IMG/VR virus record: IMGVR_UViG_3300035162_004045
Coordinates: 1 to 46,960 of that record
From: a virus
Strand: one strand, 5' to 3'
DNA: 46,960 bases
A model generated the notes under the pieces. It was not told the origin of the DNA. It saw only the letters and a program-made list of their open reading frames with translations, and did no database searches. The first letter of the stretch is position 1; the number at the start of each line of letters is the position of its first letter. The position numbers and the translations under genes are program-made. Below, piece by piece: positions 41,825 through 43,955 of the stretch.

Positions 41825-42112
41825 GGCATACTCTGAGCTTCGGATAGACCGAAAGGAGAAATCCTAAGAATATATTCTTAAGATCTGGCAATGATATCAT
41901 TCTTCATCACAGCAACAAGTTGTTATCTGCGTAAGCCGGTGATGATGTTCTTCAGAAGCCAACTGCGGACACAGAGTCGTTCAAAACAGCGGGCCTATTA
42001 CGCTGTATCATAACTGTTAAGTAGGCATATTTAACAGGATAAGGAGAATAGGTAGGAGCGGTAAAAGCCCATATAAGTTTCTTGGAGGAAGCCTCTAAAC
42101 CTTTTTGAACAA
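41825..42112 (+). ncRNA. Structured non-coding module X
   Basis: No supported reading frame in 288 bases. Visible structure: AGGA-GAAA-TCCT hairpin with a GNRA loop (about 41853-41864), a perfect 16-base palindrome TAAGAATATATTCTTA (41865-41880), and TTCGG/CCGAA. A GAGG-AAG-CCTC hairpin followed by CTTTTT at the end (about 42083-42107) could be a terminator. Bounded by GGCACAC hairpins. A large phage ncRNA near tRNAs is one possibility. Confidence 0.4.
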
Positions 42113-42139
42113 CCGCTGGCACACCGGTTAAAGTGTGCC
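42113..42139 (+). repeat. GGCACAC hairpin repeat, copy 5
   Basis: Exact copy; lies between structured modules X and A. Confidence 0.8.
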
Positions 42140-42368
42140 ACATATGCTCACCACCAACATAGGGTCCGAGTACAGGCAATCGCGAATGGAGCGTTCCTCA
42201 GCCCGACTAGCGGTTGTGTAAAAAAGCCACCTGCTCTTTGTCTATCACCCGTGAGCGGGTCGCGCTAATGATGTTGGAAAAGTGGTTGTCTACGGGGGTA
42301 TCCGCCCCGGACAGGGTGCTTGATCGCGATACTTGGGAGAGTCCCTCCGATGCTGACCGACAACCCAA
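42140..42368 (+). ncRNA. Structured non-coding module A
   Basis: Shares TCACCACCAACATAG (42148-42162), CGTGAGCGGGTC and GCTAATGATGTTGGAAA (42264-42280) with module B. CCAACAT (42154-42160) can pair with ATGTTGG (42271-42277), closing a domain that contains CAATCGC/GCGGTTG (42177-42183 with 42210-42216) and CCCG-TGAG-CGGG. No supported ORF. The unlike sequence but shared closing blocks suggest an RNA family. Confidence 0.45.
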
Positions 42369-42395
42369 CCGCTGGCACACCGGTTAAAGTGTGCC
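42369..42395 (+). repeat. GGCACAC hairpin repeat, copy 6
   Basis: Exact copy; ends 7 nt before tRNA-Gln. Confidence 0.8.
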
Positions 42396-42402
42396 ACTTT
42401 CT

Positions 42403-42473
42403 TGGGGTATGGTGTAATGGCAACACAGAGGGTTTTGGTTCCTCCGTTCTAGGTTCGAATCCTAGTACCCCAG
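42403..42473 (+). tRNA. tRNA-Gln (anticodon TTG)
   Basis: Acceptor TGGGGTA/TACCCCA, anticodon loop TTTTGGT, T-arm CTAGG/CCTAG. Canonical Gln features including U1-A72. Confidence 0.93.
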
Positions 42474-42487
42474 TTAAATAAAAAAAC

Positions 42488-42516
42488 TTGACATTTTTTA
42501 TCAACTAGGATATAAT
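42488..42516 (+). promoter_or_regulatory. Sigma-70-type promoter for a tRNA run
   Basis: TTGACA 42488-42493 and TATAAT 42511-42516 with a 17-bp spacer; precedes tRNA-Leu(CAA). Confidence 0.82.
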
Positions 42517-42530
42517 TAGTACATAATCAA

Positions 42531-42614
42531 GGCTAAGTGGTGGAATGGTATACACAGCAGTTTCAAAAGCTGCCGCCCATTATGGGCTTGTCGGTTCGAA
42601 TCCGACCTTAGCTA
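42531..42614 (+). tRNA. tRNA-Leu (anticodon CAA)
   Basis: Class II: acceptor GGCTAAG/CTTAGCT, anticodon loop TTCAAAA, long variable arm, T-loop TTCGAAT. Confidence 0.93.
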
Positions 42615-42622
42615 TTAAGTGA

Positions 42623-42695
42623 GGGGAATTAGCTCAGTTGGGAGAGCATCTGACTTGCACTCAGAAGGTCAAGAGTTCGAATCTCTTATTCTCCA
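42623..42695 (+). tRNA. tRNA-Ala (anticodon TGC)
   Basis: Acceptor GGGGAAT/ATTCTCC with a G-U pair, anticodon loop CTTGCAC. CCA follows in the DNA (42696-42698). Confidence 0.93.
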
Positions 42696-42703
42696 CCACA
42701 TAC

Positions 42704-42777
42704 CGGGGTATAGCTCAGTCTGGCAGAGCGCTGCGTTTGGGACGCAGAAGTCGTTGGTTCGAATCCAGCTACCCCGA
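42704..42777 (+). tRNA. tRNA-Pro (anticodon TGG)
   Basis: Acceptor CGGGGTA/TACCCCG, anticodon stem CTGCG/CGCAG with loop TTTGGGA. Canonical. Confidence 0.95.
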
Positions 42778-42783
42778 TTTAAT

Positions 42784-42856
42784 GGCAAGTTAGCTCAGTT
42801 GGCAGAGCATATGATTCATATTCATAAGGTCGCCAGTTCAAATCTGGCACTTGCCT
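42784..42856 (+). tRNA. tRNA-Met (anticodon CAT)
   Basis: Acceptor GGCAAGT/ACTTGCC, anticodon stem TATGA/TCATA with loop TTCATAT. No initiator C1-A72 mismatch; elongator Met or lysidine-type Ile. Confidence 0.92.
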
Positions 42857-42878
42857 CTTAGATCTTTGAAGATATAAA

Positions 42879-43085
42879 ATGACGATACAACCAATATACA
42901 AATATGGAATCTGGCACCAAGCCGAACATGATATCAAGGTGGAAATTATTTCTTACTTGGGTCAGAGGAACGGTGAGTCATGGTGGCTCATTAAAGGCCC
43001 AGATGGCGGAAGAACCGGAGTTTCAGAATCACAAATATCTTTTTATATAAACCTTGACAAACAAAAGAAAATGAGATATACTTAG
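42879..43085 (+). CDS. Hypothetical small protein within the tRNA array
   Basis: 68 residues: TIQPIYKYGIWHQAE, then SWWLIKGPDGGRTGVSESQI. Its end overlaps a promoter (43054). Strand-rich; function unknown. No strong ribosome site. Confidence 0.5.
   Translation: MTIQPIYKYGIWHQAEHDIKVEIISYLGQRNGESWWLIKGPDGGRTGVSESQISFYINLDKQKKMRYT
43054..43082 (+). promoter_or_regulatory. Sigma-70-type promoter for tRNA-Val and following tRNAs
   Basis: TTGACA 43054-43059 and TATACT 43077-43082 with a 17-bp spacer; conserved start region TTAGAAAGTAATCAA follows. Confidence 0.78.
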
Positions 43086-43096
43086 AAAGTAATCAA

Positions 43097-43169
43097 AGGA
43101 GGTTAGCTCAGTTGGTAGAGCATCTCGCTTACATCGAGACGGTCGCTGGTTCGAATCCAGTACCTCCTA
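43097..43169 (+). tRNA. tRNA-Val (anticodon TAC)
   Basis: Acceptor AGGAGGT/ACCTCCT, anticodon stem TCTCG/CGAGA with loop CTTACAT. Canonical. Confidence 0.94.
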
Positions 43170-43177
43170 TAGTTTTT

Positions 43178-43250
43178 GGTACCATAGCTCAGTTGGTAGA
43201 GCACCGGATTGTCGATCCGAAGGTCGCGGGTTCGAACCCCGTTGGTACCG
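43178..43250 (+). tRNA. tRNA-Asp (anticodon GTC)
   Basis: Acceptor GGTACCA/TGGTACC, discriminator G, anticodon loop TTGTCGA. Canonical Asp. Confidence 0.94.
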
Positions 43251-43284
43251 CTTAATACAAAAAAAGGCTTTATATATTGTTTCT

Positions 43285-43368
43285 GGGCTCTTGGCGGAAT
43301 TTTGGTAGACGCGCTGGTTTTAGGCACCAGTATCTTATGATGTCCGAGTTCGAGTCTCGGAGAGCCCA
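43285..43368 (+). tRNA. tRNA-Leu (anticodon TAG)
   Basis: Class II: acceptor GGGCTCT/AGAGCCC, anticodon stem CTGGT/ACCAG with loop TTTAGGC, variable arm and T-loop TTCGAGT. Confidence 0.93.
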
Positions 43369-43375
43369 TCACTTT

Positions 43376-43448
43376 GCTCCTATAGTTTAACGGTTTAGAA
43401 CGCTGGGTTTTCATCCCGGTAGTCGGAGTTCGATTCTCCGTGGGAGTA
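43376..43448 (+). tRNA. tRNA-Glu (anticodon TTC)
   Basis: Acceptor GCTCCTA/TGGGAGT, anticodon loop TTTTCAT, T-loop TTCGATT. Canonical. Confidence 0.92.
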
Positions 43449-43459
43449 TTCTTTAAAAT

Positions 43460-43546
43460 GGAGAAGTGACCGAGTGGTTTAAGGTACCGGTCTTGAAAAC
43501 CGGCGTAGGTTAACGCCTACCGTGAGTTCGAATCTCACCTTCTCCG
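43460..43546 (+). tRNA. tRNA-Ser (anticodon TGA)
   Basis: Class II: acceptor GGAGAAG/CTTCTCC, discriminator G, anticodon loop CTTGAAA, long variable stem GTAGG/CCTAC. Confidence 0.95.
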
Positions 43547-43568
43547 CTTAAAATATTATAACGAATTC

Positions 43569-43656
43569 GGGGGTATAGACCGTTAAAGTAGCCGGCCTGG
43601 ACTGTAAATCCAGTTGCATTTAGTGTACCGAGTGGGCGCGATTCCCTCTACCCTCA
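43569..43656 (+). tRNA. tRNA-Tyr (anticodon GTA) with unusual T-loop
   Basis: Acceptor GGGGGTA/TACCCTC, anticodon stem CTGGA/TCCAG with loop CTGTAAA, long variable arm. The T-loop is CGCGATT, with TT at positions 54-55 replaced by CG, and one T-stem mismatch. Likely functional but abnormal. Confidence 0.85.
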
Positions 43657-43663
43657 TATATTT

Positions 43664-43737
43664 GACCCATTAGCTCAGTTGGTTAGAGCACCGGATTGTT
43701 AATCCGGGTGTCCTAGGTTCAAATCCTAGATGGGTCG
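43664..43737 (+). tRNA. tRNA-Asn (anticodon GTT)
   Basis: Acceptor GACCCAT/ATGGGTC, anticodon loop TTGTTAA, T-loop TTCAAAT. CCA is encoded (43738-43740). Confidence 0.94.
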
Positions 43738-43740
43738 CCA

Positions 43741-43955
43741 ATATGTTCACCACCAACATAGCCTCCCCGTAGATAGTACCAGATGCGTAGGTCAAAGTCC
43801 TACTGATGATTGCCATGTATGAGCCTCACTTGAAGAAAGGCTTTGGTACTATCGGGCGTGAGCGGGTCATGCTAATGATGTTGGAAACAACTACCTTTGT
43901 CATCATGCAGAGGCCCAATGAAGGTTGCAAACTTCGGGATAGATTGAATAGTTGG
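43741..43955 (+). ncRNA. Structured non-coding module B
   Basis: Shares the three blocks of module A (43747-43761, 43857-43868, 43871-43887), with CCAACAT/ATGTTGG able to pair. Inside lie a perfect 9-bp stem GATAGTACC/GGTACTATC (43772-43780 with 43845-43853) and GTAGG/CCTAC (43787-43803). It begins directly after the Asn tRNA CCA and ends at a GGCACAC hairpin. A short frame at 43806 is not supported. Confidence 0.5.

Follow-up and report, generated by a model that had tools for sequence, protein, structure and literature searches.

Here, we describe non-coding RNA modules and a recurrent pseudoknot predicted in the DNA of an uncultured marine phage (IMG/VR record IMGVR_UViG_3300035162_004045), whose full 46,960 bases are called the window below. 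Its tRNA array comprises three stretches named X (positions 41825-42112, 288 nucleotides, nt), A (42140-42368, 229 nt) and B (43741-43955, 215 nt), and comparison with related phages indicates that they are structured non-coding modules and not tRNA debris. The pseudoknot (PK) that adjoins them is well supported as a conserved H-type element with two crossing helices that covary, and in a large group of uncultured phages it appears to mark the 3′ ends of RNAs. Its action most likely resembles that of a 3′-protective or terminator element to which a conserved pseudoknot has been added. Sizes and places of the modules agree with the original prediction, and so does the lack of a supported open reading frame (ORF), the frames in X, A and B being short and unconserved. 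Its view of structured non-coding modules within a tRNA array also stands, except that X is not one module but two.

A GGCACAC hairpin had been reported next to each module. It is indeed found beside X, A and B, but it is actually a widespread pseudoknot of 27-29 nt, (AA)CCG-CU-GGCACAC-CGG(UU)-AAA-GUGUGCC, in which the loop CGGUU pairs with the upstream AACCG and crosses the stem. The consensus consists of S1 (CCG/CGG, often extended by AA/UU), L1 (CU or AU), S2 (7 bp) and an A-rich L3. The window contains five exact copies (CCGCT starts at 5384, 41798, 42113, 42369 and 43956) where none is expected from 100 shuffles, and one degenerate copy:

41663-41690, plus strand: degenerate PK copy, directly following the stop of a 27-codon ORF
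41796-41824, plus strand: PK1, with S1 AACCG/CGGUU, L1 CU, S2 GGCACAC/GUGUGCC and L3 AAA, without a U-tract after it
42111-42139, plus strand: PK2, between X and A, without a U-tract after it
42367-42395, plus strand: PK3, which would cap the 3′ end of A and is separated by 6 nt from tRNA-Gln, with the tail ACUUUCUU
43954-43982, plus strand: PK4, which would cap the 3′ end of B and is separated by 7 nt from tRNA-Met, with the tail GCCUUAUGG
5382-5410, plus strand: fifth exact PK, outside the tRNA array and before a tRNA-like element

Both helices are maintained by covariation. When a collection was scanned with the S1 bases left free, S1 was complementary at 61 of 62 distinct sites in seven combinations (CCG/CGG, GCG/CGC, CCA/UGG, GCC/GGC, CCC/GGG, UCG/CGA and CGG/CCG), and the single free S2 position was paired at all 62 (G-C 32, C-G 22, U-A 7, U-G 1). 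A second scan with free inner S2 bases found S2 fully paired at 56 of 57 sites. For an independent test, 78 loci were fetched solely because they encode UvsX and were searched for the fold itself, requiring three pairs in S1, CT or AT as L1, seven pairs in S2 and 4-14 bases in the L3 region. On the uvsX strand this rule gave 112 matches, 58 of them non-redundant, from 70 loci, compared with 5 unrelated matches on the opposite strand and 0-3 in Markov controls. All 112 have CCG/CGG, which was not required, while S2 is diverse (e.g., GGCAGAC, GGCACCC, GGCGCCC, GGUAUCC). An intergenic copy with the compensated S1 AAGCG/CGCUU occurs in the cultured Xanthomonas phage XAJ2 (KU197014, 32487-32511). 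In bacterial genomes PK was found on one contig only, from an Erythrobacter metagenome-assembled genome with phage-like genes as judged by eye. The candidate L086 turned out to be an ordinary terminator. The open-access literature, to which the search was confined, yielded no published account of the modules or of PK.

PK has a uniform orientation and comes behind stop codons or structured RNAs. Of 72 non-redundant sites, 51 have an ORF of 45 or more codons that ends upstream, with a stop-to-PK spacing that is never below 6 nt, mostly 6-19 nt and in many cases 6-9 nt, distributed over the three frames as 24/18/9. Among 139 sites the first base of the tail is a purine in 81% and the second is C in 68%, followed by T at +4 to +6 (66, 83 and 73%), where G is present in 1-2%. 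Runs of at least four T after PK depend on what lies downstream, being found at 53 of 72 sites before an ORF versus 1 of 13 before a tRNA (Fisher p=1e-5). The core site of RNase E is RN/WUU (PMC5222698), and such a site is present at tail positions +1 to +5 in 55 of the 139 sites versus 8 in shuffled tails. In relatives PK is followed by tRNA-Met before uvsX. About 170 nt upstream of uvsX, L198 and L200 have a TTGACA...TATAAT-type promoter at the place where relatives have PK directly before this gene.

The modules were divided into the following candidate parts, where z compares folding energy with that of shuffled sequences:

41825-41979, plus strand: X5, the 5′ half of X, a candidate structured RNA closed by ACUCUG/CAGAGU (z -0.94)
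41980-42110, plus strand: X3, the 3′ half of X, closed by UUCAAAA/UUUUGAA (z -2.96) and recurring in L015
42144-42280, plus strand: domain D1 of module A, with P1 CCAACAU/AUGUUGG, P2 GGGU/ACCC, P3 AGCG/CGCU, a variable arm and a possible pseudoknot CUCAC/GUGAG
42281-42366, plus strand: domain D2 of module A, closed by GGUUGUC/GACAACC
43743-43887, plus strand: domain D1 of module B, with P2 GCCU/GGGC, compensatory to A, and P4 GAUAGUACCA/UGGUACUAUC
43888-43953, plus strand: domain D2 of module B, closed by CAACUA/UAGUUG

A search with Rfam models (cmscan, gathering and permissive thresholds) over the window and the homologous loci gave only tRNAs and unrelated weak matches over the modules, and BLASTN against cultured phages gave chance matches and PK only. 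By these searches there is no Rfam family for the modules or PK, and the modules have no cultured relative. GOLLD and ROOL, to which the original prediction had pointed with caution, are phage non-coding RNAs (ncRNAs) with complex folds and unknown function that often lie near tRNA islands (PMC12286853). The caution was justified as the Infernal check matched neither of them nor any other Rfam family. The modules resemble them in setting only, measuring 215-290 nt versus hundreds of nt and being PK-capped; a further mark of GOLLD and ROOL is a homo-oligomeric RNA cage.

Single-sequence folding energy is weak evidence for the modules, and comparison is stronger. Modules B and X fold mildly better than shuffled sequences (z -1.49 and -1.61). 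The multiple stems that had been noticed are weak by this measure, but they are borne out by covariation in P2, by differing D2 closing helices, by the variable P4 and by the capping pseudoknot.

The claimed homology of A and B with outer blocks able to pair was confirmed. Their common 5′ block AUG-YUCACCACCAACAUAG and 3′ block GUGAGCGGGUCRYGCUAAUGAUGUUGGAAA are joined by CCAACAU/AUGUUGG, across which YUCAC/GUGAG can pair in both modules. A scan with the 3′ block detected homologues in four contigs (L006-L009) and a relaxed search added a divergent one in L012, giving seven copies in six phage contigs. The module-bearing phages include relatives of the window (DNA polymerase at 71% in G001 and 62% in G004, UvsX at 60% in G007) as well as distant ones (DNA polymerase at 37-43% in G002 and 32-38% in G003). 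The D1 pattern was not found in bacterial genomes. Origin from tRNA debris, which the original prediction had considered, is contradicted by the absence of tRNA-model matches over X, A and B and by D1 being kept in L009 without an adjoining tRNA.

Comparative folding of A, B and their homologues, which had been proposed as a check, revealed a conserved P1-P2-P3 junction with compensatory changes in P2, where two pairs are altered on both sides between A (GGGU/ACCC) and B (GCCU/GGGC). P3 reads AGCG/YGCU across the family, and RNAalifold returned P1, P2, P3 and the PK stem unprompted. The CUCAC/GUGAG pairing across P1 is kept as U-G pairs in B and L012, and P4 is a helix of 10-15 bp with unrelated sequence in B, L008 and L012. 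Taken one by one in wide windows the D2 closing helices are not significant. In a position-constrained joint test 4 of 6 independent members have, beside PK, a closing helix with six or more Watson-Crick pairs, where 0.05 are expected. That D1 represents one conserved RNA fold with variable arms is well supported by these comparisons. In the explanation favoured here, judged as a whole about as likely right as wrong, A and B are two members of a new phage ncRNA family composed of D1, an exchangeable D2 and a 3′ PK cap.

Several candidates were rejected during these comparisons. Matches to the 5′ block in L082-L084 and to the 3′ block in L035-L037 are due to chance. A mini-ORF (AUG CUC ACC RCC AAC AU.) at the first conserved base of D1 lacks a Shine-Dalgarno sequence, is not conserved in length and has its codons in paired stems. 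A resemblance to the hammerhead (CUAAUGA...GGAAA) was ruled out by topology.

Exchange of modules and domains between phages is well supported by their distribution. L006 and L007 agree to 99% in the interior of D1 and to 55% in D2, and the reverse is seen between L007 and L009 (80% in D2, 55% in the interior of D1). X3 is found at 94% between two PKs in the close relative L015, at a place that corresponds to the window PK at 5384 with its tRNA-like element, and L142/L028 carry a truncated copy of X3 fused with a tRNA. For X5 no relative was found. As X3 recurs alone elsewhere, X is by this comparison composed of two further modules, unrelated to A/B but placed likewise, and PK-bounded units apparently move.

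Features relevant for expression are as follows, the promoter-like sites being consensus matches only:

41446-41474, plus strand: promoter-like site TTGACT-17-TACAAT, nearest upstream of X, A and tRNA-Gln
42402-42474, plus strand: tRNA-Gln(UUG), which follows module and PK in three cases (window A, L006 and L007)
43054-43082, plus strand: promoter-like site TTGACA-17-TATACT, nearest upstream of B
43990-44066, plus strand: tRNA-Met, after B

Promoter-like sites lie at 40662, 41446, 42488, 43054 and 44085, and the consensus scan found none directly before X, A or B. This means that X and A probably share a transcript with tRNA-Gln, presumably started from 41446, and B one with its neighbouring tRNAs, presumably started from 43054. 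The 3′ end of a module would lie just after PK and could be formed when RNase P cuts the following tRNA at its 5′ end, which lies 6-7 nt downstream. Where a protein gene follows, the end would be formed at the U-tract, either by intrinsic termination or by RNase E-type cleavage. PK would then hinder 3′-to-5′ exonucleases so that the module or the upstream mRNA accumulates, and a released module might, as a guess, act in trans as a folded RNA with D1 as scaffold and P4/D2 as variable part. Such a role at RNA 3′ ends would explain the place after stop codons and ncRNAs, the conserved fold and the dependence of the U-tract on the downstream feature. That PK caps RNA 3′ ends by termination or cleavage and that the modules are stable RNAs freed from tRNA transcripts has, in our opinion, an equal chance of being right or wrong. 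The wider proposal, namely a marine clade in which PK is a general two-mode mark of 3′ ends (U-tract or tRNA cleavage) that caps interchangeable, multi-domain, trans-acting ncRNAs, is tentative and rather doubtful.

Some results weigh against these proposals. PK1 and PK2 precede modules and not tRNAs, and the formation of ends at these two is not explained by the model. PK3 was the sole PK of the window to pass a terminator consensus scan, and with its 8-bp stem and fair U-rich tail it could terminate transcription. Module A folds no better than shuffled sequences (z +0.58). P1 is invariant in the family and hence gives no covariation, and P3 and the CUCAC/GUGAG pseudoknot overlap so that both cannot be complete. 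The windows of the D2 test were narrowed post hoc, after the wide-window version had failed to reach significance, and because they were picked after the sequences had been seen the joint test supports the closing helices but does not decide.

Bacterial intrinsic (Rho-independent) terminators and 3′ protective stem-loops likewise lie at the ends of genes and have a GC-rich stem with a U-tract behind it. PK might be just such a terminator or an attenuator with its loop paired upstream, and the modules might be functionless spacer or leader of a tRNA operon. The GC-rich stem of 7-8 bp, the location after stop codons and the U-tract at 74% of sites before ORFs are in line with this, but the next genes often start less than 60 nt away, which leaves no room for a promoter, and they would fall silent if termination at PK were complete. 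U-tracts are missing after PK1, PK2 and those PKs that precede tRNAs. PK further differs from bacterial terminators by its conserved loop that is paired upstream and by a U-tract that is preceded by a conserved purine-C and missing where a tRNA follows, and D1 is too conserved among distant phages for a mere spacer. This explanation is unlikely in our view but has to be taken seriously. Clearly less probable is a binding site for a phage protein (e.g., UvsX or a single-strand-binding protein) that would regulate the next gene. The gene 32 mRNA of phages T2/T4 offers a precedent with its compact H-type pseudoknot bound by gp32 (PMC3014915), the folds are alike, and PK often lies directly upstream of uvsX or, in XAJ2, upstream of a hypothetical gene and, behind it, a recombinase gene. 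The gene 32 pseudoknot, however, is located 67 nt upstream of one start codon, whereas PK is repeated, follows stop codons and ncRNAs and is then followed by U-tracts. It also occurs before tRNAs, ncRNAs and many unrelated ORFs, its position is tied to the upstream stop, and a protein site would leave the U-tract unexplained.

PK as mainly a DNA-level boundary for recombination and cassette swapping, with the RNA fold secondary, is very improbable. The PK-bounded X3 at another place in a relative and the shuffling of domains would suit it, as would the precedent of PeSL cassettes in T4-like phages, repeated intergenic stem-loops linked to module shuffling (cited in PMC4503421). The strict orientation, however, points to RNA, as do the G-U pairs, the compensation in the stems and the dependence of the U-tract on what lies downstream, and recombination between repeats can be a by-product. 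Moreover, PeSL is a stem-loop coupled to an early promoter whereas PK has a conserved pseudoknot; the consensus scan found no promoter-like site directly after PK1-PK4, and one directly follows only a few other PKs (L009, L027). We give hardly any credence to group I introns or other known ribozymes as the nature of the modules. Group I intron matches do occur beside tRNA genes of module-bearing phages (L007 1899-2091 and, below the gathering score, L008 4690-4933), but none of the ribozyme and intron models of Rfam has a match over X, A or B, RF00028 is absent over the homologues too, and no gene is interrupted by the modules, A and B lying between whole tRNA genes. In retroviruses, readthrough pseudoknots lie 8 nt after the stop. 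The similar spacing of many PKs might suggest that they stimulate stop-codon readthrough, yet all three stop-to-PK frames occur, which makes recoding unlikely, one of these frames meets a stop within PK itself, and PK is also found after ncRNAs. Of all explanations considered this one is the most far-fetched.

Among known repeated pseudoknots the STAXI motif is found near genes of DNA-handling proteins (PMC2864571). Its units stand in tandems of 2-3 and often have UUCG loops, whereas PK is usually single and without UUCG, and the STAXI model of Rfam matched neither the window region nor L047, where two PKs lie in tandem. If PK does mark RNA 3′ ends it would be a new kind of 3′-end signal, with strong covariation, presence in 70 of 78 independently fetched loci of one phage clade and no Rfam match. 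It also offers a handle on capped phage ncRNAs overlooked by gene finders, and further PK-capped RNAs probably exist. With the A/B family, the little-understood ncRNAs in the tRNA arrays of phages gain a modular member.

Additional structures were observed in the window and its relatives. Non-coding stretches that end with PK but have no sequence relationship with X, A or B are found in L018 (reverse strand, 11700-12090) and L010 (540-768). The tRNA-like element at 5411-5480 of the window was not called by ARAGORN; it has the acceptor stem GUUUUUG/CAAAAAC and a T arm, apparently no D arm, and an inner stem that is compensatory in L032 (AAUAU/AUAUU versus AAUGU/ACAUU). On the reverse strand of L012 (~2130-2310) an acceptor stem CUCUACU/AGUAGAG and a T arm directly follow PK, with a large structured insert replacing the D and anticodon arms, and D2 of the A/B-type module of L012 also contains a T-arm-like hairpin. 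Two more structured spacers, missed in the original prediction, fold better than the modules. The one at 40814-41030, before tRNA-Lys, has a long closing helix AGAAGGAGA.../...UCUCCUUCU (z -2.66). The other, at 41215-41352 after tRNA-Thr, is closed by a helix of 14 bp and may have a loop-loop pairing AGUCUC/GAGACU (z -5.33); it is a candidate further structured RNA, for which no relative was found.

The window encodes a DNA polymerase, UvsX, a DnaB-like helicase, ribonucleotide reductase and GroEL. The best match of its UvsX among cultured phages has ~30% identity, while at least 598 IMG/VR stretches encode a UvsX relative, and the 80 that were kept are 74-98% identical. In addition to the 18 tRNA genes called by ARAGORN a probable tRNA lies at 40729-40812 with the anticodon loop CUUAUAA (perhaps Ile-UAU), where also a weak match to the tmRNA model (22.1 bits) was obtained. 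Two pentapeptide-repeat-like genes stand in tandem (44799-45428 and 45486-46061), and their near-identical 5′ flanks (127 nt at 98%) suggest a recent duplication.

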